Source: Rhodamnia argentea (taxonomy: Eukaryota > Streptophyta > Magnoliopsida > Myrtales > Myrtaceae). From it: a stretch of 64,000 bases of DNA. The stretch is from the NCBI RefSeq assembly GCF_020921035.1, contig NC_063155.1:30435294-30499293 (forward strand), read 5' to 3'. Within the stretch, counting starts at the first letter, position 1. The number at the start of each line of letters is the position of its first letter. Below are positions 16,547 to 62,600 of this stretch, piece by piece. Position numbers and translations under genes: made by a program. The notes below the pieces were generated by a model. It was not told the origin of the DNA, did no database searches, and worked only from the letters and a program-made list of their open reading frames with translations.

Positions 16547-16555
16547 GCAGAAATG
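16547..16555. repeat. Left 9-bp target-site duplication of the large MULE
   Basis: GCAGAAATG, identical to 29420-29428 and immediately adjacent to the inverted terminus. Confidence 0.95.
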
Positions 16556-16850
16556 GGGCTTTTTTCCAAACCAGGTGGCCAAAACAAAGTAAATACCAAA
16601 TCGGGTGTTGACTTTTTTTATTTACCAAATCAGGTGTCGCTCGGCGGTCATAATGCCGAGCGACACCCGTCTCGGCAGTCCCACCGCCGATCGGCGGGAG
16701 CAGTGGTGGCCCGCCACCCGCTCGGCACTTATAGTGCCGAGCGGGTGTGCTGGTCGGCACCAAAAATGCCGAGCCGCTCCCGCTCGGCATTGTCGATGCC
16801 GAACGGCCGCCGCTCGGCATTTTTGGTGCCGAGCGGGTGCCCAATCCACC
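16556..16850 (+). repeat. Left long terminal inverted repeat of the large MULE
   Basis: The first 22 bases equal the reverse complement of the right end, and similarity continues for about 130 bp. Inward it becomes a series of palindromic modules of the form GCTCGGCAcTTATAgTGCCGAGC, with centres at about 16650, 16732, 16762, 16790 and 16825. Confidence 0.9.
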
Positions 16851-16860
16851 CCCCACCCAC

Positions 16861-19060
16861 CCCACCCCACCCCACACATTGGGCACACAACGTAACATAT
16901 GTTGGTGCTTTGGGACAAATTTTAGGGGGTGCAATTGTCTTGACAGTGGATGATATGGAAATATCCCCCGTTTACGGAAAACGTCTCTCTCACAGAGAGG
17001 GAATGATTCGAGAGTAAAAAGACGAAAATGGGGTCATTCCCGAGAAGTGAGCTTGGGTTGATATGTGAATGATGGAAGCTAAATGGGCAAAAAGGTAATT
17101 TTCGTATGTGCATGCATTTGGCTGGGTCGGGGGTATCCTGGCACTCCAAAGGGCTAGGTGATTACGAAAATTCACGTGTAATTGACTAATCTTAGGGAAC
17201 CAAACTCTTAGCTAGGGATGAAGCTTGAATTCATTTGAACAAAAAAAAAAATCACGCGACAAACTAAGAAGTCTCATAAGCAATCGGCTGATTTAACAAC
17301 CCGTGGATTAAGGGGATAGCGATTTCGGCGCGTCGCGAGAATTCTTATAATTATGTATGTGTATGTAGCCACCGATATCACACGAAAGCATATGATATTC
17401 ATGCCTCATGTTTGAATGAGGAGGGGCGCAAAAAATAAAAAAATAAAAAGGCATTCTCTTGTCGAATGAGACTCTCATCACTTGCACGAGCCTCCGAGAA
17501 ACCAAGCAAAGGATTACCCAAAAAAAAAGGAAAAAGAAAAAAAAAGATGCCTCTTAGGCTATTCAAAGAATGGCTTCTTCAGAACATGCAATTTGCAATT
17601 TTTTTATTTTATTTTAATCATGTTTTGTCAATCAATAGTTACCGAAGTACTTTCTTGTGTAAGTGGAGCAAAAAAAACATGGCTGGTGAACAAACCGAAA
17701 AGTTCAATGTACATGATATTGAAGAGATTAATTTACATCGAAAGGACATTAAGGCAGTCTTTTATCTTTTTGGGGGGTTGGTCGAAGTTCATTTTAGTAC
17801 TTGGAAAGAGGCAAATTTCGCGAGCCGATGTTGACTTTTTGAGTAGACCATAAAGCTCATTAGGGTTCAAGTCATTGTCTAGCTTACGTGGATTGGAGTA
17901 ATCTCGTATTAAACAACAGATCGGGGTGTGGAGCGATATAAGATGGATTCCGAATACGATGTTTGCTACGTTTTAGGAAGAATCTTGAGGAGATTAGTGA
18001 CCGCGGAACGACTAGAACCGCTCTTCTTCCCACTTAAAATTGATTAGAAAGCGTAGGGTGGGTAGAACAAAATAGATGTTGTTAGAGAAATTGTTAGATA
18101 AATGCTTTCAGTTAATGGTTGGAATATATGAAAGCGGGGACAAGAAAAGTCCCGAGGTAGATAGACAATAATGATTTGGGGCTATTGAGGTCGTCTCTTT
18201 GCTCATCCCTTTTATGCTCATGGTTTGAGCATTTTCTTATTTCTTCCATTCTTCACCCTCGTCCACTTCTGGTTCTTAGTCCTCCTCTTCTTCTTCTGCC
18301 CCGTGGGAGTAAAGCCTTCCCCATTCGTGTCGGGTTTTCCAATCTCGGGTTGACAATCCTCGCAGAACCAAAGAACGTCCCCATGGAAAACTACGGTCTC
18401 TAGGCAATAACTGAAAAACAGATAAAAAAAAATGAGGCCGACATTCCAAATTTATAACAGCGAACATTCTCTTGCATGCATGCATACGAGAATGCACATG
18501 TATCATTATGTGATGTAATTATAGAGGGTGTGAGGGGCGAACTTACCGGTGGACAGCGTATTCCTTACGGTCGTTACGGTAGATCAAAGTTTCCTCAAAA
18601 CCGGTATCTCCGCATTGGAGGCGCACAATCGCCCGCACGAACATAAAATCAGGGTAGACCTCAAACCTTATTTGGAATTTTAGGCATTTAAAAATGTACG
18701 GCCTTTAAAACCGATCAACCTAATTCACACAAAATGGAAACCAAAATTGTGATGGTTGTGAAAAACAGCGATAATGAATGAACCTTTACGAGAAATTAAC
18801 GACGAAAAGTCTAGGACGGCCGGAGTATGCGTACCATTTCCTTATTTGGATTCACCGCCACGAACGTAGAATCCCCGTCCTGGCCGTGGCGGGAGGGGTA
18901 CTCGCCACGCTCGGCGGGTCGGTCTTGTTGGACGAGAGAATCCATCCTATCCTTCCTTTTTTTCACGAAGCACTTAAGAATGAGAGAAAAATAACTGGGA
19001 CTAACTTCGTTTTTGCGCTCCAACTTTGAATTCCTTCCCATCCACTTTATCTTGCGAGAT
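16861..19060. other. MULE interior, 3' of the transposase; no gene recognised
   Basis: Between the left terminus and the GC-rich hairpins. Short ORFs only. It may be 3' flanking DNA of the transposase unit or captured sequence too diverged to name. Confidence 0.5.
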
Positions 19061-19087
19061 TTGGGGGAGGCCCTCCCGGCTTTGCAG

Positions 19088-19214
19088 CCCGTATTTGGGG
19101 GAGGCCCCCCCCCCCGCGGCGCCCTGCAGACTTGGGGTGCTGCGGGGCGGGCCCGCCTGCGGCACCCCCACGGGCTGCGGGCGCCGCGGCGGGGGGGCCC
19201 TCCTCCAAATACGG

Positions 19215-19215
<1 letters not shown>
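19088..19215. repeat. GC-rich foldback (128 bp)
   Basis: The left arm starts CCCGTATTTGGGGGAGG and runs into CCGCGGCGCCC. The right arm is its near reverse complement, ending CCAAATACGGG. A GA dinucleotide tract follows at 19216-19250, and another at about 19290-19318. Confidence 0.85.
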
Positions 19216-19254
<39 letters not shown>

Positions 19255-19294
19255 GTGAGAGTGAGAGGTCATGTCACTTCAAATTTGAGAGAGT

Positions 19295-19329
<35 letters not shown>

Positions 19330-19344
19330 GGAGAGGTCATGCTA

Positions 19345-19413
19345 CATTATTGGCACAAAACCGAGTACTTGGTTGGGGGAGCCTCCCTCAACCAAGTACG
19401 TTGCAGTGCCAAT
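19345..19413. repeat. Short hairpin with nested inverted repeats
   Basis: The inner palindrome at 19365-19399 has GTACTTGGTTG and CAACCAAGTAC. The outer arms read CATTATTGGCA and TGCCAATAATG. Confidence 0.85.
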
Positions 19414-19888
19414 AATGGCACCGCATGAAAAAATAAACAAAAAAGGTAGTACGTTGCGGTGCCGGCAATGGCACTGCAAAGACTTATGGGAGGCCCGCCC
19501 TACACCTTATTGTGTGCGGGCACGTAGCTTTCGCATTGCGTCGCACACCGGGGGCGTTGCGGCGCCATTCACGGGTTTGAGTAATTTAGTTTGAAGTATT
19601 CTCTTTTTGCATTTGAAAAGTCCATGATGCCCAAGTTTTTTGGCTCCATACGAGGTGGGAAGGGATACTCCGACGACGTGTATGTGTGCAATTACATGTA
19701 GCAATTATATGTGCACAAAGTAGGAAACTATTGGCCGTATATTAATTAAGTAATTATATGTACACATAAATGATGAAATATCGCGCAATTGAGATATGGT
19801 AATGTCACAAAAAAAAATTACACATGGTTACGCGATCTATTACAAAAGTGTCGACAAACTATTTTACATAATTGGCACTAACCGGCAT

Positions 19889-22538
19889 CTAATCCCGAGC
19901 CGATCCGTGCGCACATGTTTGCCTGTTGTGCCCTGATTTCCCGCAGTTCGTGCAATGGTTACGCGAATCGCTCTTGCTCGGGGTTCTCCGGTCCATCTCA
20001 TTACGTATCCGAGATGCACGAGGCCTTCCTTTCTTCCTAATACGCCTTTGATCCGGAACTAATGGCAACTCATTAGCTTTATCCCGGTAGTCATGATGCC
20101 CTAACGGATGAAACATGTACCGATAGCACTGAAGGGTTTTGTCCAACGTATAGCATTCATCTACGAACCCGGTGTAATCAATTGCATGTAGTTGGCATAC
20201 TGCAATTACGTGGGAACAAGGAAGTTTCAACTGTTCAAATTTCCCACATGTGCATGTTCGCTCGTGTAGATGCACTTTGTATTTGTTGCCCCCGGATCCT
20301 CTAGTTCTATCACGTGCAGTTTTCACTTCGTAAATCCCTCTTTCAGAGTCGAAACATCTTACCCGATGCCTCTTTGCCTTTTCGCTATTTTTGTGGAGCG
20401 TTTCACCCGCAATTTGCGTAAATTGCCATTGGTTGGCCTTCTGCATCGTGTACATCGTTCTCCTCGTGTCAAAATAATGAGACAACCGGTAGAATATCTT
20501 TTCCACCATGGCTGTTATTGGCAAACCACGAACGGGTTTCAGCATCCCGTTGACCGATTCAACCAAATTTGTGGTCATCGACCCATATCTCTTCCCTCCA
20601 TCATAAGCCTTTGTCCATTTCTCCCTTGGAATCTGATCACACCATTCAGCTGTGGGTTGATCGACCTCCCTAATTCGGCTCATGATGAAATCGAACTTCC
20701 GTCGTTGATTCGCGTAAGCTGCACATTACAACAATAATCAGTACAGTACATTATAGTAAAATTTTGTAAAAAGTTTTGAGGTGAGAATTCACAAAATTTA
20801 ACATTTACCTGCCATTTGAACATGTTTTATCCCGTCGGCATTTTTGAAATATTTTTTGTAGTTCTCGACAATATGAAGAATGCAATATCTATGGTGGGCA
20901 TGTGGAGGACGCCACCGTGCTGTCTGCATTGCTTGTTGAATCCCGATATGTCTGTCTGATATCACACAAATATCATCCCTTCTGGTGACATATCTCCGCA
21001 GCATATTCATAAACCACCGCCAGTTGTCAACATTTTCCCTATCAACCACAGCAAATGCCAATGGGAAATTATGATTATTCCCATCAAGTGAGACCGCACA
21101 AAGGAGCGTTCCTCGGTATTTTCCATACAAGAAAGTACCGTCGACAAATATAACAGGCCGACAACTTTTGAAACCTTCAATTGTTTGCCTAAAAGTCCAA
21201 AACATGCGGTCGAAAACCGTGCGGCTCTCATCCTCGGCCATGCGTTCCTCGATCACGAAATGAGAACCTGGATTCTCTTTCATCATTGCGTTCATGTACC
21301 TCCTCAACTTACCATATGACTCATCCCATCCGCCAAATTCTTTGGCAATCGCCAATTGTTTGGCCTTCCGGATTTTACGGTAAGTAGGTTGGAAGTTAAG
21401 CTTGTCTTGAATCTCCGCCATGATCGCCTTGATTTTGATATCCGGTTGGGCGGAGACCATTTGTTGGATGAAGCTGCATATGTACATTTGATCGAGGTGC
21501 GGATGATCTGCAGATGCATGTATATTACTGCATGTATGTGGGCCATTATACTTACTTATTTTCCAAAACATGCCACCCACTTTTGTGATCGCGCGGAGCC
21601 TCCAGCCACATGGTCCATTCGGATTACCACACTTGATGACATATTCTCTCTTCTTCGTGGTATCATAGCAAAACCTATGATTTCTTCTCATTGAGTACTC
21701 CTTGGCGCCTAGTCGTACCGCATCCCGTGATGGAAAAAGCTGCCCAACAGCAAATTCTTTCGACGGATCAAATACCGTACCGCCCGACTTTGCTCTTGTA
21801 TCGTCTTGCATCATATCAAAGTCGATCTCCGAGTAGGGCGGTGGATGTACCAATGGTTGAATGGGGTTACTATCTTTGCGTGTTATAGTAACTCTCCATA
21901 TTGTCGATTCAATGACTTCGGCATCACTATCATCCTTGTCCATCCAACTATCATCGTCTTCATCGCTAGCCTCATCATGGTCATTATCATCATTATCACC
22001 ATCATCATCATTATTATCGTTATTATCATCGGACTCACCCGGTCGATTACGCACAGCAACATCTTGTCCCGCTTGTTCTTCTTCTTCTGCTCCTTCTTGT
22101 TCTTGTTCTTCGCTCCTTCTTGTTCTTCTTCTTCTCCTTCTTGTTCTTCTTCTTCGCTCCTTCTTGTTCTTCTTCTTCTTCACAAACATTGGACCCTTCC
22201 CCCGTATGATAATCATGTATCACCTGGTGTTCATCTACAATGACATAAAACACTAGAAACCCCATTCCAGCAGATCGATTGGCAAATTGCTGGATCATCC
22301 CAACGATATTGTCATCACGCACGTCCATTATATCATACACGACAAACCCTTGTGTGACATTTGGGCATCTATAGATGATGCTATGAATATACTGATTTCC
22401 CGTAATATTCAACGCGCTCTCAATCGTAGCACGTAATGCATCTAATGTCCATATGTTTGCAAACGCGAAGTAGGTGGATTCTCCGCCTTCGTAATCAGCT
22501 CCATAATCTTTTTGCACTATTCTACCTCCCCAATGCAA
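19889..22538 (-). CDS. MURA-type Mutator transposase of the large MULE, two exons plus N-terminal frame
   Basis: Exon 2 is 20718-19889 and exon 1 runs down to 20819; the junction restores QMA-AYANQRRKFDF. From the N-terminus: a MuDR N-terminal-like piece (HWGGRIVQ, about 22538-22210); a Lys/Glu tract and acidic stretch; the zinc-binding region CGNPNGPCGWRLRA; the DDE catalytic core (PVIFVDGTFLYGKYRG with the first Asp, CVISDRHIGIQQA with the second, candidate Glu in NLVESVNGML); a SWIM finger (CTCGKFEQLKLPCSHVIAVC); and a terminal CCHC knuckle (CTNCGKSGHNRQTC). The N-terminal piece and the catalytic body lie in different frames, and the switch falls in a GAA-rich minisatellite at about 22080-22200. 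No ATG is in frame at 22538, so the true start may also be damaged. Confidence 0.88.
22075..22190. repeat. GAA-rich minisatellite in the transposase gene
   Basis: On the minus strand there are about five units of the type GAAGAAGAAGAACAAGAAGG with 21-24-bp spacing. Units that are not multiples of three change the reading frame. Confidence 0.85.
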
Positions 22539-22559
22539 AATCGCAATGAGATGTAGACG

Positions 22560-23240
22560 CCATTACGCTAAAGAAATTATAAATTATTTGGCGGCTACAT
22601 TTTACGAAACATTACAACAACCAATATATCAAATGAAATAAACATCCTTCTATAGCCATAAAAATTATGCTAAAGAAATGTTTACAAAATTAAAATTCAA
22701 TGAATTTTAAATATTGTAATTATTTCACGTATAAATAACAATCCAAAAAAATAAATCTATACTTCGTAAACTGTAAAAAATAGGTACAACAAAATTAACC
22801 TCGAAATATCGATGGAGAGCACGTGCCGAATGAATATTTCTTAACTCCCAAGACAATGCACCGAGCAACAACGTTGGCTTGGGACAAAATCACAACTTCG
22901 GGGAAAAAATTTCATAAATTAATTTCAATATGACGTAGATATTAATAAAAAATATATAAAACACACACTGTAATATACACTTATCGAAGCAACAGAGAGG
23001 GCAACAATTTCTGAGCCCAGGCAAGCGAGAGGATGTTAGTGTGAAATAGAGGAAGTGCGAGAGTTGGAGCACGAGAGAGGGAAAGCGCAAGAGTGATATG
23101 AGAATGAGAGAGTAAGAGAGAGGGGAGCTTTAGGCGTGCTTTAAACACAGTCGAAGAGAAGCTGTAGCACCCGTGAAGGAGGTAGGACGGCAATAACACC
23201 ACAATGAGGTTACAAAAATAGGGGGTGGGAGGCACCCCCT
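22560..23240. other. AT-rich leader between the divergent MULE genes
   Basis: Upstream region of the transposase. No gene recognised. Confidence 0.5.
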
Positions 23241-23323
23241 CCTACAGCCACAATAATGGCGCAGGGGAGGGCCCCCCATTTCCGGCGCCATTATGGCGGC
23301 CGAAAGGGGGGGCCTCCCCCTCT

Positions 23324-23637
23324 CCCTAGGGCTGCGGCGCCATGCTGCAGCCTAGGGGGCCCTCCCTACCTCTGCCGGCGCCATAATGGCGCTGCAGGGG
23401 AGGGGGAGGCCGGGCCCCCCCTCCCCCACGCAATCGGACCGCCGAGCGGGGGCCCCCTCCCCGCCCGCAGCGGGCGGGGGCCCCCTGCCCGCCTGCAGCG
23501 AGGCGGGGCCCGCTCGGCGATCATCTTGCCGAGCGGAGGGGGGCCCGGCCTCCCCCTCCCCCTGCAGCGCCATAATGGCGCTGCAGAGGTAGGGGGAGGT
23601 CCCCCCTAGGCTGCAGCATGGCGCTGCAGCCCTAGGG
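23324..23637. repeat. 314-bp GC-rich long inverted repeat between transposase and PMD gene
   Basis: The left arm starts CCCTAGGGCTGCGGCGCCAT. The right arm, read in reverse, starts CCCTAGGGCTGCAGCGCCAT and matches for about 150 bp with few differences. The arms meet near 23480 at a CCCGCCCGCAGCGGGCGGG-like centre. Each arm also holds small palindromes (CGCCATAATGGCG; in the right arm a CTCGGCGATCATCTTGCCGAG module like those of the MULE ends). Further CGCCAATAATGGCGC motifs flank it at about 23240-23310 and 23660-23750. Confidence 0.9.
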
Positions 23638-23940
23638 AGTGGGTTGCCCCCCACCCTCTAATTTTGCGGCGCCAATAATGGCGCTGCAGGCCATAGGGGA
23701 GGGGGGCTGCCCCTCCACATGAGCTGCAGCGCCAATAATGGTACTGCGGCCATGGGGGCGTCTGCGGCGCTTTCACGGGCGTTGCAGAGTGTCCTTCGGC
23801 TCCGCTTTTTTAAGTAGAGGCGAGTGCTCTCATTTCTCATCATCGACTATATTTCTTCGATTGATTACTCAACTCTCGTGCTCTTCCTCGATTACTTATC
23901 GAAGTTACGAATTTTTAGCATTCTTCACAATTTCGTTGAA

Positions 23941-26209
23941 ATGGCACGGAGGAGTCACATTCAGCCGGGGCACGAGAATGATTCACTACTTAGTGGACGG
24001 GCGCGACACGGATCACAAGCTTTATGGGACACCGAGGTAATTGCGGAATTTAGCATGTTAACTTGTCATTTGTCACGACATTATGAAAATAGTCACTAAT
24101 AGTTGATGTGACAATTTTGCGGATACCGCAAGCTGCAGGTTCTTAGATGTCAAAGAGCGGCGCAACACGTAGGTGAACTTGATCCGCGAATACTCCCTTA
24201 TCTCGCAAGATTCGGGATTTTACGGTGTTTATAAAATGGGGTTTGTCCGGCTTGATTGGCATTTGATTACGACATTGGTCGAGCGATGGAGGCTCGAGAC
24301 CCATACCTTTCATATGCCGGAAGGTGAAGTTACCATCACGCAGAGACATTGCGATGATTACGGGGCTTCCTATCGAGGGACTTGTCATTCTGTCCCCCCG
24401 ATTGGAATTGGGGCAATCTCCGTGATCATCCGCTTGGTGCTCGGCCACCTCAACCGCGCGGCACACAAATAAATTTAAGATGGTTGAGTGAAAACTTTCA
24501 CCATCTTCCCGAAGATGCCGATGAGGACACTCGTACTATATCATGCTAGGGCATTCGTTCTTCGCCCGATTGGAGGATATATTTTTGCGGACAAATCGGG
24601 TGCTCGAGTTAGTTTGCTATTTCTCCCACTATTAACGAACATCGAGGCCCCTACACGATGCAGGTTGGGGTTCCATGACACTAGCATGGTTGTATCGGGA
24701 GCTATGCCGTGCAACCGATCCAAACGCGAGGCAAATGGGCGGTGCCCTACATGTACTCCAGATTTGGGCGTGGGAGCGTTTCAAATGTGTCTCCCCCGGT
24801 CCGACTCCATTTGCTCCTTTCCCGGATGCACCTTTCGGTAGTCGGTATGTCATGTATTGCCTTTTTTCATTTCGTGCGTCATTAATTTTTTTGCAGCGCG
24901 TATAGTACATGAAATCTAAAGTTGTATGTTTCTGCAGCTGGAGTCGAGGCCGAACTACAACCGACGTCCCCACGCATATCGTGACACATCTACGCTACCA
25001 ATTTGATCGAATGGGGACCGATGATGTAAGTAATGATAGCAACGAGTGGGTTTAATATAATGTTAATCTTTAAATTTAGCTTTGGTGTAATTTGATATAT
25101 TTCATTACGATAACGGATTATTTGGGAGCCGTATGACGAAATTGAAGAAGATGTACGAGACACGCTTTCACGGACAAAACTATTGGAGGGCGAAAGTCCC
25201 ACTCATCCATCCTTTGGATAGTTGAGTGGCACTATCCAGGCCCGTGTACTTCGGCGGTTTCGGTTGCGGCAGCCTAATACCTAAGAATCCTCACGATCAT
25301 AGTGCCTTGCATGGTCTTGATAACACGCCACCCAAGACCGATTGGGAGAATAAGCATAGACGGTGGATCGATTTGTGGAACAGACGTGCCGAACGTATAG
25401 TGCGGGGTAGACATTCAACGGAAACACTCCACTTTCATTCCGGATATATGGAGTGGTTCCGTCGACATACAAGGAAGTGGATTTACATTGCGGGAGAGCT
25501 GCAATGGGTTCAACGGTTCGTGCATTTTAATTTTAATTTATTTCACTACTTATTTTAAGTCACATAAATTATTGATATATTGATAACTTTTGTTAATTTT
25601 AATATCATTACTAGGGTGACGGGGTTGAGCAGATCGTACATATCATGGATTCGGTCGGTCCATCTCCTCGAGCTTGGGAAAAAGTAAGGACGATAGCTAG
25701 GGCAATGTTATATGCCCGGAATGAGGAACGGCGGCTAACAATGATGCCAGCACCTCAACCAGCAACTACGGCAACACCCGTTGGGCCGGACGAGGAGGAT
25801 GACCCCCCCGAGACTGTTCACCCGACCCGGAGAAGTCCTCGAGCTCATACATATGATGATGTCGTCCCGTATTCCATGGAATATCATACAACGGATTTTG
25901 CTCCCGAGTTCACTCAGGGGTTCAGCCAACATTTCGATGCGGGGGTTCACCCGGTTCGCGGAACATTTGATGATCAACATCCGCATGGACTCCGGCTAGT
26001 TCTCCTTCGAGTATGGACCCGATTTCTCTCATTCTTATCCAAGTCCCTCCTACGAAGGGTATGACATATTTTTACAAGATATGCCTTCGTCATCGAGACA
26101 TCCTACTCGGTCGGACCCTCATTCTCGTCGGTATGACACTAGGCTTCCCGATCAACGGAGACAACCTCATTGCGGAACAGGAGGTCATGTAGGAAGACGA
26201 CATCGTTAG
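23941..26209 (+). pseudogene. Plant mobile domain (PMD/MAIN-like) gene carried by the MULE, frameshifted
   Basis: Starts MARRSHIQPG (exon 23941-24036, GT donor next). Homology resumes after an acceptor at 24138: LRCQRAAQHVGELDPRILPY, then in another frame GFYGVYKMGFVRLDWHLITT..LVERWRLETHTFHMPEGEVT, then TGLPIEG, LPEDADEDTRT, IGGYIFADKSGARVSLLFLP, WLYRELCRATDPNARQMGGA, WERFKCVSPGPTPFAPFP, FHSGYMEWFRRHTRKWIYIA, EQIVHIMDSVGPSPRAWEKV and the end CGTGGHVGRRHR. This order is the PMD (PF10536) layout of MAIN/MAIL1 and of PP7-like long-form proteins. At least three or four frame changes and one early stop separate the blocks, so it is not translatable as a whole. PMD genes are known both as host developmental/silencing factors and as transposon cargo. 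Confidence 0.8.
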
Positions 26210-27206
26210 TACATGTAATTGCAATTAACTTGATATCTATTATGAAGATTTCGTGTTTTTGTATATCTTATGCAATTATATGTCGTGTTTCGACACGTAC
26301 CCATTTTTATTTATTTGAAGAAAACACCAAAAATATAAAAATAAAAAACCACGGAAACGGTGCCCATGGTAACACAAATACGCAATTTTTTTGTTCATCA
26401 CTAAAACCTTAAAAATTGACCTACCACCAAAAACCGTAAACCCCGTGCATCAAAAGGGGATGGTGGAAGAAAAGCATTAGATGGAGCAATTTTAAAACAC
26501 TAATCTCCATTCAAGAAGATCATATAATTATTCAAGAAGATCATATGATTATTGGAGAAGCTACTTTTCTACGTTTCTCCCCGGTTTAAACACACGTCAG
26601 AAGTTTTCCAACAGGCAAATTTCATGTTCACTTTTACCCCGGCAAAAGTACACTTTTAGTGTCATAGTTGTGTATGAAGATTACTTTAGTGCAAAAAATT
26701 TCAAACGGATTACTTTAATACTAAGTCGGAGACAAAAGGATCGCTTTGGTACCTCCGGCAAAAAATTATCGGTGAAAATTAATACGTGGCTTGAGCATTT
26801 TCTCCTTTTAAATTTCATCCAAAAGGAGCTTTTGGTGATCAAGTTAGTAAATCTTGTGGAAAATTATGTGAATTCTGTCATCAGATTGTCTCGCGATGAA
26901 TTGTGAGGACTATAAAGAAGTGACAGTATTTTAGTGACTCAAGTGTAGTTGTAATTTTCGTTTTGTCGCTTGATTAATGGTGAATCATGTGCTGCTCCTC
27001 ATGGAGTATGTGTCGCCAATCGGATCGCGTAAATCCAGTGTCCGATATATTTTCTTGTTTTTTTATTATTGTGTTCGATTGCTTTTTTTTTTTTTCCTTT
27101 TTTTGAAACAACCGTATGAATAGCTTCAAATTAACTTGATCAGCGGAAAAAGAAATTAACTCTCATTTTTGCAGAGATATTATCAGTCCGTATTTCCTTT
27201 AAAGTA

Positions 27207-27270
<64 letters not shown>

Positions 27271-27900
27271 GGTCAACCCTCAAAAGATTCTATGCATGTT
27301 TCTATCTAACATGAAATCACCGATCCAACTACCCCGGCGAAGTCAAATTCCTATTTTGTTTTCCAATCAATGTTCGAGATAATTTTGATGAAATGTCCGG
27401 ATACAATTTATCCTTAAAAAAAAATATGAATCGAGTCGGTTCGTTCTCTCATAATTATTCCAAAAGAGCTAAAGACAACATATCGTGCGAGACACATATA
27501 TGAGCTCAACTTGCATCTTTCCAGCAACTTCATAGGATGAATGCTTTGACCAATGAAAATAATAAATTAAAAAAACCAATCGATCCCTTAAAAAAAAATA
27601 TAATGCCTACTCATATAAACACTCGGTAGATGATAGTTCAAAGTAACTTACAAAATGCATAGAGAGTGTACAGATATACTAATTATGTTTGAGAGTGACC
27701 ACGGAATTCTTTTGTCTGTTCAAATTTACAACCCTAGAGCAAAGAGGGAAAATCCTTAGCGGGAAAGTTACAACCGTCAAGTTACGCCGCACCATCTTGT
27801 GTCCAAGTGCTTCTTGTGAATTGGTATCACAATTTGCATACAAACAATTTTGACTCATCATCAATATATTTGCAAGTAACGCTCTCTTACATTTGATTCA
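26210..27900. other. MULE interior, AT-rich; contains (TA)n microsatellite
   Basis: A pure TA run lies at about 27208-27267. No coding signal was recognised. The stretch just before 27921 may be captured intron of the PR-10 gene. Confidence 0.5.
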
Positions 27901-27920
27901 ACGATAACAATTGCAGCTAG

Positions 27921-28215
27921 CCATTTCAAGTACGCGAAACACGGGGTTGGCGCTCCGGACCAGGACAAACTCACATACAGCTACAGCTGGATCGAGGCGA
28001 CGCCCGATGAACATATTCGAGAAGATCTCGTATGACATCAAGATCGAGGCCAACCCCGAGGGAGGGTCCATATGCAAGAACAGAAGCAAGTACTACGCCA
28101 CTTTGGTAACATTCGGTTCACCGAGGAGCAAATCAACGAAGGCAAGGAGAAGGTCTTCGGCTTGTTCAACGCTCTTGAGGGTTATCTCTAGGCCAACCGT
28201 AATGCTTGCTAAGAA
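27921..28215 (+). pseudogene. Captured Bet v 1/PR-10 gene fragment (second exon) inside the MULE
   Basis: After a TTGCAG acceptor-like site the sequence reads SHFKYAKHGVGAPDQDKLTY..SYSWIE, then in a shifted frame MNIFEKISYDIKIEANPEGG..SICKNRSKYYAT, then in another frame FTEEQINEGKEKVFGLFNAL..EGYL and a stop where PR-10 proteins have LLANPDAY. This matches the C-terminal two-thirds of Bet v 1-class proteins (major allergen Pru/Mal type), whose single intron precedes this exon. At least two frameshifts and one early stop break it. The intron-exon border suggests DNA-level capture, not a retrocopy. Confidence 0.85.
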
Positions 28216-29124
28216 TGTCAAACGTATGAGGTGATCACCGTCTATTACCACAAGATTGTCGATCTTATCATGATGTCTCTCCTAAAGGGTGTGTGTCTCT
28301 TCATGGTTGTTCATTTTTAATCTTGGGTTTATGTTCGGATTAAGGAGCCTCGGGCCCGCCCGTAGCAAGTCTCGAGATCGTTCGTTGTTTTGAGTATTTT
28401 GAGAATGGTGTGATGTCAAAAAATAAATACGAAGGAAATCCTCTTTCTATTTTCTTAGTATGCGCGTAATTTATTATTCCTTAATTTGATACGTGAAAAC
28501 TAAGGAGGGAAAACGTCAACCGTCAAAAAGCAACATGCTCTTTATTTCTAAAATAATTGGTGTCCGCACTATCATTATTTGGATAGTATATGACACCTCA
28601 ACTAACAATTTATTCTACAAAAGAATAAATCGTTAAGTACTTAGCTTACAAAGAACGGCTAGGTGTTTGAGGTCCCGTATGCTCGATACTTAAAACTCCA
28701 ATTCGTTTGCACCTTCTTAATTACAATGTACTGAATAATCGTTATCAATTTCGTGATCAACCCAATTTGCCTACTTAATTAATTATGATTAATACATACT
28801 CTTCCAACAACTCTGTCATTTGGATCAAATGAAATTAGCGCATCCCATGCGAAGTTAATCCAATTATAGACAATATGAAAATGATAGGAGTGTTGTGTTG
28901 TACATTTTACAATCTAATTCGTCCACAATTTGTAAAATGAAAACCCATTGACCATTTAGCCGATGCCTTTTTCTTCCCCAACCTTGACCGCTTTCATATG
29001 TCGGATTAATTATTTCCTAATCATTCACTCTATAATACAAGTCCTGTTTCTATCATTGAACGAATCCAAATATATAATTATTTATGATTTGTTTTATTTC
29101 GTGAAGCCGGTTAGCATTGGTGGG
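28216..29124. other. MULE interior between PR-10 relic and right terminus
   Basis: AT-rich, with no gene recognised. Confidence 0.5.
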
Positions 29125-29419
29125 GGAGACCGGCTGCCGGTCGGCACTTATAGTGCCGAACGGATCGCCGGTCGGCACTAATATCGCTGAAGCGGCAGTC
29201 CGTTCGGCACTATAAGTGCCGGCCGTGATCCGTTCGGCACTATAAGTGCCGACCGGACTTAGTCCGCGAGGCTTCCCGACCGCTCGGCAGTATGATTGCC
29301 GAGCCGAGTGTCGCTTCGGCACTATGATCGCCGAGCGACACCCGATTTGGTAAATAAAAAAAGTCAACCCCTGATTTGGTAATTATTTGGTTTTTTACAC
29401 CTGGTTTGGAAAAAAGCCC
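29125..29419 (-). repeat. Right long terminal inverted repeat of the large MULE
   Basis: Inverted counterpart of 16556-16850. It carries about six palindromic modules such as GTTCGGCACTATAAGTGCCG between about 29125 and 29340, then the conserved outer 125 bp. Confidence 0.9.
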
Positions 29420-29428
29420 GCAGAAATG
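29420..29428. repeat. Right 9-bp target-site duplication of the large MULE
   Basis: GCAGAAATG, identical to 16547-16555. Confidence 0.95.
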
Positions 29429-59654: not shown

Positions 59655-62600
59655 TCAGTTGATAGCTGTGAGTGGAAGTCTGGAGTCCCTCACTGATTGT
59701 GCCGACTCATTTAGACCCAGAACGTACTTTGTGTCTCCGTTTGCTTGCTTTGAAGATTTCATATCCCAGAATAATCTGAGCAGTTCCTCGAAAGCAGGAG
59801 TTCGCAGTTCTTCAATGGACGAAATGGTAGGTAAATTAAACTGTCTCCTTCTTGGTGTTGAGCAGGTCGGTTCATCCACCTGCATCACAGCCAAGTGTTT
59901 AGCTGCTGAATGAGCAAAAAGATGGCAAAAGATACCTCTTATGTGTTACAAATGCACACTGTGCAAACATGCGCAGAACAAAAATGCACACGGACTCCCA
60001 CGATGTGCACAGGCCTGCGTGGGCGCCCGCATGCAGGGAGAGTGGACACTGAAACCCTTACCTCATATTCCTCGAGAAGACATTTCCCTGAATCTTCCGT
60101 GATCTCCAAAATTTTGTCGTAGTGGCCACCCTTCAATTCCCCCATATGCCCATAACAAGGGGCAATTACAGATTTGAGGTTTGCACATGCATCTTGGTCA
60201 AGCTGTAGTGAATCTGCACAGATGGACACTCATGATGAATGATTAATTATCTGGAGGGCAGAAATGGCTACACAAATAGGAGATGGTGCATTCATGAAAC
60301 TGAAGACTGACCATTGATTGATGACAGTATGTCACTGTTTGCAACATCAACATCATCAAGTGTAGCAGACAAAGTAGAAGAAAATTGAGCACGTAGGTTC
60401 TGATTGACTTTGACAGCTTTCCTGAGAAGAAAAGCCCAAAAATGCCAAATAATGAATTGGGAATTTGTAAATGATTTAGAATGAAAATGTTTCTGGGAGG
60501 AAGTTTACCTAACAATGGAATCGACAGAAGCCACATTCCTCTTCTCTAGACTGATCAAAGATTCTTGGGCATTCTTCCATTGTTCTGCACCCATTTTTGT
60601 CTTCCTAAAACTGCACGGCCAATTGTCCGTTAGTGATACTTAAGAAGACACAGAAGCCAAACAGAAAAAAGAAATCACAAGGAAATGAAGATGAAAGCGA
60701 AAATACTGGAAGATATTATGCAGCACAATGCTAAAGTAGTGTTAGCTTCATTGAACCATACCAGTTCTGGAGCACTTCCTCCAGAGCCTTTTTCCCAACT
60801 TCCACAGCAGAGTTGTCCTCATTATATTGTGACTCTGTCTTTTCCATGTGCACGGTCCATTCTTCCTTCACAGTTGAAGCGGAATCTACCATAGTTGACA
60901 TTTCCTCTTGCAGTTTGGCGGCTCTGCTAGTTGCACTCTCCCGAAGATTTTGCACAGCCATTTGAACCTGTCAATAGAGAATCACATGTTTGATATTTGT
61001 AGGCAAATAAGAGGTGCTGCACGTATAGCTACATAAACTTGAAGAAAACGTTGTCCCTCCAATGAATCTAATAGTCAGCTAGTACCAGCTTTTTCTTCCT
61101 TGCATTTGAACTTGCAAACAGCTCTGCTACTTTTTCTAGCATTTGCCTTTCTTCATTGGCAGCACATTCCTATAAGCACCACAACCGAAGTAATATTAGT
61201 CGTATTCAGGTGGTTCTGTTTCTTTAATACCCAAGGGACCTTGAATATAGTACATTAACCACCTCAAATTTCTTCTCAAGTTCAGACAGCTTTAGATCAT
61301 TTACAGTTTGTGCATCTTCCACGATCTGGTTTAGCTTGGTCGCATGCATGTCCAGAGTCTCAAAGAAGTTGACTGTGATTTTAGAAACTGATCTTGCAGT
61401 TTCCACTGCTCTTGCATGCGCCTGTTCCATTACAATTAGAAAGAAAGATCTGTTAAGACTACGAATTTGAAATACTGAAGCTACTCGAGAGTTGAAGCAT
61501 AAGCAACAAAGTAAAAACCTTGCGTTGTTGCTGTGCATTCGATATCAGCATCTCCTCTTGTTTGAGAAGACTATTATGAAGCTCATTTAGTAGTGTATCA
61601 GCATCCGAAGCAATTCCTTTGAAGAGCTGCACCGTGCACATGAAGGCTAATCAGATCACAGTAGACAATAGGAAGGTGTAATCCAAGATGGCAATTATGG
61701 AGTAGATAATTACTTCTTCAAGTCTACATGAGTGCTTAGAAACCTCAGAATTGAGACTTGAAAAAGTGGATCGAGAATTCTCATCAAGCTCCCCATCTAT
61801 ATTGTCCAAATTTTTTACACCAGAATCATACACCTCTCTGAGTCTTCTTAGTTGTTTTCGAAGTTGTTGAGTGACCTACAAAATATCAAATGCAATGTAA
61901 CTCACTTAGGTCAGCTACAATGATGAAGAATTTATGCGCTCACCCAGCTAGATCTAACCTCTGATTTTGTGGACACGAAGGACTGCATATCTTCTTCCAT
62001 GTCCTTCAGTTGCTCCTCTTGATGTGTCACAGAAGCGGCCACAGTCTTATGCAATGCTTCAAGCTGTTGACTGAGCTGGGATTGAAAATTCTGTATGAGT
62101 ATTTTGTTTTCATCTTCAATTTTGTCCTTGCGTTCTGTAACAAATGTCCCCAATAAGTACAGTCTACATTACAAGACTACAGAGAATAATGAAGTTAACT
62201 TCAACACTAACCGATTTTGGCAAATAAACTGGAAACATCCGATGCGGCATTCTCCAACTCCGCACGTATCTCAAATGCGCGATCAACAAGTACTCTTTCT
62301 GAAAACATACAAGTAATAATATTTGAAATGCTACCATATAAAAATTGATCGCACTTTATCAGAGCTAGAAGCCTTCAATTGAAATTGACAACAGCAGAAC
62401 TGATAAAATAGAACGAAGATAGGTTTGCTGAAGCACCTATGAAGAGGAGAGGACTTCCCTTTATTTGACTGTAGTCGTGACATACCTTGGTAAAGTAATT
62501 TTAGCAGATAAACAATTTTTCTTTGCACATTTTCCCAGTAAAGTAAGATTGACAAATATACCATTCTAGATTTATTTTAGCGTAAAAGATTGAAACTTAA

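Follow-up and report, generated by a model that had tools for sequence, protein, structure and literature searches.

A two-gene TIR-MULE family of Rhodamnia argentea with a separate, divergent and apparently constrained PMD gene

PMD proteins silence plant transposons, yet transposons carry PMD genes. MAIN and MAIL1, which are PMD relatives, silence transposable elements, and an anti-silencing role for PMD genes borne by such elements has been put forward as speculation (PMC5418596, PMC8616336). The closest described systems are the PMD-C-carrying MULEs of grasses and Amborella (Ikeda et al. 2017, PMC5418596), in which, as presented there, a MULE transposase and a plant mobile domain likewise occur within one element. 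Whether PMD genes borne by transposons are of use to them or only inert passengers is treated in the relevant part of that paper as speculation only. The family described here makes the question testable, because it is bounded and present in many copies, allows constraint to be compared gene by gene and shows a clean split in gene order.

The bounded element comprises 12,864 bp, positions 16556 to 29419 of the window, the 64-kb stretch of DNA analyzed here (Table 1). The first-pass annotation had proposed a complete MULE with exact borders and an exact 9-bp target duplication, and both proposals held, with GCAGAAATG directly outside both ends, paired terminal inverted repeats (TIRs) and the same two ends in every sibling read. 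Comparison of the left end with the reverse-complemented right end, also suggested there, gave the 104-nt arms, 89% complementary; the start word described as 20 bases is indeed common to both ends, but in the alignment the identical stretch covers the outermost 22 bases. In the window, each strand has a single occurrence of the 17-base word with which the TIR starts. Palindromes of the subterminal type number 12 in the element, against a mean of 0.2 and a maximum of 2 in 200 first-order Markov shuffles, and 4 to 12 per sibling. The locus thus combines a 9-bp target site duplication (TSD), long TIRs and a MURA transposase with a MULE domain and a SWIM finger; these sequence features identify 16556-29419 as a complete member of a two-gene, autonomous-type TIR-MULE family. 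The 9-mer GCAGAAATG has one further occurrence in the window, at 60258.

Table 1. Features of the element and its target site (window coordinates)
Feature	Position	Strand	Remark
Left target site duplication, 9 bp, GCAGAAATG	16547-16555		Abuts left end
Left terminal inverted repeat, 104 nt	16556-16659	+	Ungapped, 89% complementary to right one
Left subterminal array, 6 palindromes CGGC-(A/G)-N7-(T/C)-GCCG	16642-16831		Spacing 30-50 bp
Left-arm segment, 0.8 kb	18194-19007		Candidate for captured sequence or relics
MURA transposase exon 2	19889-20718	-	SWIM zinc finger; open in window copy
MURA transposase exon 1	20809-22563	-	Acidic region and MULE catalytic domain; limits hand-projected from siblings
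GC-rich imperfect palindrome	23318-23643		326 bp, 83% self-complementary, between divergent genes
PMD gene provisional first exon	23941-24036	+	Splice phase provisional
PMD gene exon 2	24142-24844	+	PF10536 start
PMD gene exon 3	24938-25025	+	
PMD gene exon 4	25117-25515	+	PF10536 end
PMD gene exon 5	25615-26209	+	C-terminal tail; no Pfam match above cut-off
Right arm	26210-29100		No gene recognized
Right subterminal array, 5 palindromes CGGC-(A/G)-N7-(T/C)-GCCG	29142-29333		Spacing 30-63 bp
Right terminal inverted repeat, 104 nt	29316-29419	-	Ungapped, 89% complementary to left one
Right target site duplication, 9 bp, GCAGAAATG	29420-29428		Abuts right end; perfect copy of left

At least 26 copies of the family were recognized, up to 98 to 99% alike in the arms, and 17 siblings, which sit at independent sites, were read. 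The 9-mers flanking the siblings match at 9/9 positions in 10, at 8/9 in 5 and at 7/9 in 2, whereas none of 272 mismatched left-right pairings reaches 8/9 (best, 7/9). Since all 17 siblings also have the same two ends, the paired ends and their duplications are not due to chance. The recommended search for siblings and empty sites was likewise productive, giving, besides the siblings, an empty site for one of them, S14, at C1:10757015-10757368, where 354 bp match 354 bp of joined flanks at 95%; by its length, this site would hold one copy of the duplication. It replaced a 74% match as the S14 empty site, and for S13 a related locus (70%) that extends over the join was left out of the count because of a difference at the TSD. 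Further, weaker relatives of the S14 flank likewise span the join. A genome search for a paralogous empty site with the flanks of the window copy matched the element itself only. Fourteen of the 17 siblings are 12.3 to 14.0 kb long, the remaining three being 11.1, 9.9, and 6.3 kb, so that a size of about 13 kb is the norm for this family; the element is large, as had been pointed out, but within its own family it is ordinary. The transposase region exceeds 2 kb in 14/17 siblings, measures 1.7 kb in S04 and 0.4 kb in S08 and is missing from S12, and the PMD region is present in 15/17 and partial in 2.

A MURA-type transposase and a divergent PMD gene had been read as parts of one bounded unit, and their Pfam domains do lie within it on opposite strands, the genes standing head-to-head. 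The transposase matches PF10551 (E 8.6e-20, 71.5 bits; cut-off, 27.6) and SWIM (E 6.4e-8, 32.4 bits; cut-off, 19.6), with a DBD_Tnp_Mut match in exon 1 (20.7 bits) under its cut-off of 25 and a zinc-knuckle match in exon 2 also under its cut-off. In the window copy the best PMD piece matches PF10536 at 6.8e-13 and two more at 0.012 to 0.013, individually below cut-off, and exons 2 to 5 of sibling S17 give a full match to PF10536 (261 bits, E 1.6e-77). The element PMD shares only 26% identity with a PMD gene of this genome that has a single exon, and a structure search found no solved PMD structure (best E, 0.079). The first-pass annotation calls the element readable end to end; its borders are exact, but in the window copy the PMD gene and transposase exon 1 read as interrupted by indels. 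MURA exon 1, open in sibling S01, here reads as frameshifted at two places, near 22548 and, within the acidic repeat, at about 22050-22160. The window PMD gene has 12 frameshifting indels relative to the open S17 gene and no in-frame stops, and the ratio of short indels to substitutions in this copy is 0.76, versus 0.05 to 0.36 in seven other copies; this suggests that the frameshifts in both genes of the window copy are assembly errors. Of the 15 siblings compared, 13 carry at least one in-frame stop in PMD; only S17 and S11 lack one, and S11 has 14 indels. In PMD, four stop changes recur in at least two copies, as do two in MURA, and some copies therefore appear to descend from already broken ones.

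Captured host sequence, which the first-pass annotation had placed within the element, is at most a candidate here. In the right arm, 20 of the 21 long matches to 26900-29100 fall at family copies (the other one, at C1:28.02 Mb, is unassigned), which leaves a captured host gene there unsupported, and a Pfam scan of seven further frames turned up no domain. The left-arm segment 18194-19007 recurs, whole or in part, with 85 to 88% identity at six places that could not be linked to the family, four of them at C5:22.64-22.82 Mb and two at C8:19.06 Mb, and it stays a candidate for captured sequence or relics.

Genome searches, whose orientation counts refer to the matches listed, placed the PMD gene head-to-head with window-type MURA at 22 of 24 places, none being scored at the other 2. 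At 65 places with related MURA, the PMD gene lies downstream on the same strand at 42, and none was scored at 23. There are thus 22 divergent and 42 tandem pairs among the matches listed, and no pair breaks the split. The tandem loci, which lie in the same genome and are known from search matches alone, have MURA 57 to 76% identical to that of the window and, 1.3 to 3.0 kb away, PMD 61 to 73% identical to S17 PMD (values for 38 of the 42 pairs, the other 4 lacking one); they differ from the window clade in that PMD is downstream on the same strand in 42/42 pairs instead of divergent in 22/22, among the matches listed. The head-to-head order probably derives from the tandem one, with a single gene having been inverted.

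Substitutions in the PMD domain that are shared among copies comprise 38 synonymous and 44 nonsynonymous changes (omega, 0.364), versus 45 and 138 among singletons (omega, 0.964, nearly neutral), a contrast with a Fisher p of 0.0006, whereas four off-frame controls gave p values of 0.23 to 0.72. These p values are guides only, the copies compared being related. For MURA, a gene the element must need, the corresponding values are 0.489 and 0.619 (p 0.31), not a significant contrast, so that for this gene the test is weak; the PMD C-terminal tail also lacks the contrast (p 0.44). Pooled pairwise dN/dS is 0.548 for PMD and 0.542 for MURA, versus 0.68 to 0.87 off frame. The substitution pattern of the PMD domain apparently fits purifying selection during the spread of the family, and PMD, which behaves like a gene needed by the element, looks like an integral element gene. 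Leaving any anti-silencing role aside, it is likely, from the sequence comparisons, that the element is complete and that PMD is one of its working genes.

In such an element the MURA protein would bind the ends, possibly at the subterminal CGGCA-N7-TGCCG palindrome arrays, excise the element and make a 9-bp staggered cut for its insertion. The two genes may be driven from the shared intergenic region, 23318-23643 between them being the probable shared promoter region, and the PMD protein would be an accessory protein of the element. It might interfere with the PMD proteins through which the host silences (MAIN/MAIL1 with PP7L), which would keep the element expressed, a proposal to which we give somewhat less than an even chance; it is plausible because the PMD relatives MAIN and MAIL1 themselves silence transposable elements and because the same speculation is in print. 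A more specific and still more tentative version is an element-coded decoy of MAIN/MAIL1, a maintained PMD re-oriented for co-activation with the transposase and acting in a VANC-like way. If true, it would mean VANC-like anti-silencing by a protein from the very family with which the host silences. It is possible, at a similarly tentative level, that the PMD protein is instead a transposition cofactor, helping the transposase or re-integration in the manner of a second MuDR gene and unrelated to silencing. Two-gene MULEs such as maize MuDR, with mudrA and mudrB, do exist, constraint on the PMD domain fits any needed function, and the shared intergenic region suits a cofactor too. Against this, the PMD proteins dealt with in the pertinent sections of PMC5418596 and PMC7156037 act in silencing and gene expression, not in recombination.

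That PMD is instead a passive captured host passenger, Pack-MULE-like, which moves along and does nothing for the element, is unlikely. Gene capture by MULEs is known from the accounts in PMC8277862 and PMC5418596, the PMD gene reads as interrupted in most copies, including that of the window, and some copies have a few stops in common. However, a passenger would be expected to decay neutrally on all branches, whereas in the PMD domain those substitutions that copies share look constrained, and PMD also adjoins the sister MURAs, at 42/65 places among the matches listed. One group, moreover, has high identity for MURA as well as for PMD, the other lower identity for each (r 0.92 over 60 pairs, falling to 0.20 inside the tandem group).

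A composite origin, in which two elements joined head to head and left the 326-bp palindrome as a relic of their abutting ends, is still less probable. The palindrome does sit between both genes and contains a CGGC-N-GCCG unit of the subterminal type at 23515, but it is weaker or shorter in siblings and the exact TIR start word is absent from it, and in the 17 siblings read the duplications lie at the outer ends. An inversion of MURA between the palindrome clusters at 19.1-19.5 and 23.2-23.75 kb is not supported, the similarities being short and the strongest one direct. That the element is false, its two ends being unrelated and the 9-bp match fortuitous, has no point in its favor and can be practically dismissed given the paired ends in 17/17 siblings and the empty site of S14.

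Maize MuDR resembles the window element in having two genes (mudrA and mudrB), long TIRs and a 9-bp TSD; it differs in that mudrB is not a PMD gene and in that its genes are convergent, whereas those described here are divergent. VANC proteins form a family different from PMD. VANDAL21 with VANC21 is likewise a class II plant element with an extra, possibly anti-silencing gene, as outlined in PMC8616336. The first-pass conclusion that PMD genes travel on MULEs agrees with one bounded unit that has siblings, and it is already published in the account of the grass and Amborella elements (PMC5418596). Like those, the window element encodes PMD within a MULE; unlike the PMD-transposase fusion proteins described there (PMC5418596), its PMD is a separate gene, divergent from the transposase on the opposite strand. 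Relative to the known fusions, this separate, divergent and apparently constrained PMD gene is new.

The element lies between two copies of GCAGAAATG, at 16547-16555 and 29420-29428, exactly the borders proposed in the first-pass annotation, and is 12,864 bp long between them. Both ends open with the same word, although the outer identity actually covers 22 bases rather than the 20 first described. Inward of each end is an array of 17-nt palindromes, CGGC-(A/G)-N7-(T/C)-GCCG, six on the left and five on the right, with a twelfth in the intergenic region at 23515. This total of 12 compares with a mean of 0.2 and a maximum of 2 in 200 first-order Markov shuffles, and siblings carry 4 to 12 each. 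A 326-bp GC-rich palindrome (23318-23643), variable across siblings, also lies between the divergent genes, and a smaller related one lies behind the transposase (19406-19421). Mechanically, there is hardly any doubt that this is an ordinary, well-bounded MULE.

Features of the element (window positions)
Feature	Position	Strand	Remarks
Terminal arms	16556-16659 and 29316-29419		104 nt, 89% complementary, outer 22 bases identical
MURA exon 1	22563-20809	minus	MULE domain PF10551, E 8.6e-20; limits projected by hand
MURA exon 2	20718-19889	minus	SWIM finger PF04434, 6.4e-8
PMD provisional first exon	23941-24036	plus	
PMD exon 2	24142-24844	plus	
PMD exon 3	24938-25025	plus	
PMD exon 4	25117-25515	plus	
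PMD exon 5	25615-26209	plus	

The terminal sequence has siblings. In the 346.7-Mb genome, where the window occupies C6:30435294-30499293, the left 295 bp gave at least 82 matches, representing by position at least 26 elements including the window copy (best 40 of 150 candidates). We read 17 siblings (S01 to S17), and two ends were present in every one. Lengths were 12.3 to 14.0 kb in 14 of them and 11.1, 9.9, and 6.3 kb in the others; about 13 kb is therefore the usual size in this family, and the length that had been called unusual is real but not exceptional among relatives. Flanking 9-mers agreed at 9/9 positions in 10 siblings, 8/9 in 5, and 7/9 in 2, and none of 272 mismatched left-right flank pairings reached 8/9. 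The search for empty sites yielded one for S14, at C1:10757015-10757368 (354 bp, versus 354 bp of joined flanks, at 95% identity), where the equal lengths imply a single copy of the target site duplication (TSD). It yielded no paralogous site for the window copy, whose flanks matched only the element itself in the genome. S07 (C9:24.00 Mb) lies near the start of a gene in its flank which, from its sequence, may be a lectin-type receptor kinase gene. A matching pair of ends 33 kb apart at C8:18664987-18698178 probably bounds a single element into which large insertions have nested.

The claim that one bounded element holds both a transposase and a divergent PMD gene was confirmed, with the PF10551 and SWIM domains on the minus strand and a PF10536-type gene on the plus strand. 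At the MURA N terminus, a DBD_Tnp_Mut match fell under its cut-off in the Pfam domain search. In S01, a single open frame of 596 codons contains MURA exon 1, and exon 2 is also open; exon 1 of the window copy is spread over two reading frames and shows both a 1-bp insertion near 22548 and acidic-repeat indels. The transposase region exceeds 2 kb in 14 of the 17 siblings and measures 1.7 kb in S04 and 0.4 kb in S08. PMD exons 2 to 5 of S17 are open (593 amino acids) and scored 261 bits against PF10536 positions 1-347 (E 1.6e-77). The query 23700-26250 is complete in 15 of the 17 siblings save for at most 67 bp at its start, upstream of the gene; S04 and S12 retain only its later part. S12 (C3:229024), which keeps just the end of the PMD region, is a 6.3-kb nonautonomous internal deletion derivative without transposase, flanked by a perfect TSD, TATGATGGA.

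In PMD, frameshifting indels relative to S17 number 12 in the window copy and 14 in S11, both of them free of in-frame stops; the other 14 copies compared (including S17 itself, 0/0) total 29 indels and 35 stops (Fisher p 1.4e-7). Across the whole element, the ratio of unique short indels to unique substitutions, computed on 11 of the 18 copies, was 0.76 in the window copy, 0.92 in S11, 1.12 in S12, and 0.59 in S02, with 0.05 to 0.36 in seven further aligned copies. Judged from these patterns, the simplest reading of the indels in young copies is assembly error, which is no claim of an intact window copy.

Pooled pairwise dN/dS was 0.548 for PMD exons 2 to 5 (120 pairs, 16 copies) and 0.542 for MURA (105 pairs, 15 copies), versus 0.68 to 0.87 in shifted frames. 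Substitutions common to at least two copies mostly predate the last transpositions, and single-copy ones mostly postdate them. In the PMD domain, shared substitutions (38 synonymous, 44 nonsynonymous) gave a ratio to expectation of 0.364, versus 0.964 for singletons (45 and 138; Fisher p 0.0006); for the whole gene the values were 0.367 and 0.766 (p 0.0013). The contrast was absent from the PMD C-terminal tail by itself (p 0.44) and from four off-frame controls (p 0.23 to 0.72), and was not significant for MURA (0.489 versus 0.619, p 0.31). These p-values serve as guides, since the copies are related and the MURA acidic repeat aligns poorly. Stop changes numbered 21 singleton and 4 shared in PMD and 19 and 2 in MURA; the shared ones indicate that some lineages spread after damage. 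The sequence comparisons suggest that PMD was kept functional during the spread of the family and decayed once inserted. PMD is quite likely a working gene of the element; an anti-silencing role for its protein is a more tentative proposal, to which we give somewhat less than even weight.

Gene order differs between the window clade and the other MURAs among the matches listed. The window MURA found at least 92 matches, or at least 90 places once pieces were joined (best 90 of 728 candidates). A PMD profile search gave at least 150 matches, or 118 when C-terminal pieces are set aside (best 117 of 2465 candidates), and the S17 protein gave at least 163 (best 107 of 653). Each MURA place was assigned the closest PMD at a distance of up to 6 kb, using the PMD places from the S17 search and four from the profile search; a neighbor is expected by chance at about 0.4% per place. 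MURAs were grouped at an identity gap between 76% and 80%. Among the matches listed, the window clade without the window copy comprises 24 places, 22 divergent and 2 without a scored PMD. The 65 other MURAs listed (57 to 76% identity) comprise 42 with PMD downstream on the same strand, tandem loci that are known by match position and strand rather than at base level and may include fused genes, and 23 without a scored PMD. No listed pair breaks this split. Unpaired places carry little weight because the counts are of matches listed; the S17 MURA region, for example, lies outside them. In a first pairing, 60 of the 118 PMD places had no MURA within 6 kb among the matches listed. PMD identity was 79 to 90% in the 22 divergent pairs and 61 to 73% in 38 of the tandem pairs, the remaining four lacking a value. 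MURA and PMD identities correlate at 0.92 over 60 pairs, reflecting the two groups, and at 0.20 inside the tandem group. Five PMD matches cluster at C2:29032414-29054872 with no MULE transposase nearby among the matches listed; three lack stops (706, 637, and 525 codons), one has 1 stop, and one has 7, and the cluster looks like host single-exon PMD genes.

Captured host sequence, also claimed in the first-pass annotation, was not demonstrated, although one left-arm segment stays a candidate for it. The right-arm piece 26900-29100 gave at least 21 long matches (best 40 of 100 candidates): 12 of these coincide in position with the window copy and siblings read, 5 with further copies, 3 lie next to a window-clade MURA or left arm, and 1, at C1:28.02 Mb, has no family assignment. 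Thus 20 of the 21 listed lie at family copies. At C9:2.86 Mb, a 473-bp match lies roughly 10 kb from a left arm, and some 190 bp near the start of the piece resemble a dispersed repeat (73 to 76%). Seven further open frames, five inside or overlapping the element and two, together with part of one more, in the flanks, had no Pfam match. Given these right-arm matches and frames, capture is not established. The candidate is the left-arm segment 18194-19007, which recurs at four places in C5:22.64-22.82 Mb, with its first 0.7 kb at two inverted places at C8:19.06 Mb, all at 85 to 88% identity and without an adjacent transposase among the matches listed. These stand-alone relatives may be a donor of captured sequence or family relics; distant family copies differ as much. 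The right arm (26500-29100) differs in 6 of the 17 siblings (S04, S05, S07, S08, S09, and S15), which still have the PMD region, whole or partial; these arms look as if exchanged.

According to published work, PMD was first described from a rice MULE, is also carried by Gypsy elements, and is linked to silencing involving MAIN/MAIL1/PP7L (PMC5418596, PMC8616336, PMC7156037, PMC4583175, PMC6419827). The same papers describe eudicot PMD-C as mainly genic (PMC7156037), speculate that transposon-borne PMD counters silencing (PMC5418596, PMC8616336), and report that MULEs of grasses and Amborella carry PMD-C fusions, interpreted as two captures (PMC5418596). Because those fusions run in the same direction (PMC5418596), we infer that the tandem order would be ancestral and the divergent order derived. 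Among the open-licence papers listed by our searches, none was seen to describe a MULE-borne PMD gene in divergent orientation. In the grass and Amborella elements, as described, PMD is fused to the transposase in the same direction (PMC5418596), whereas here it is a separate gene, head-to-head with MURA; what appears new is this second gene, separate, divergently oriented, and, from its substitution pattern, apparently constrained.
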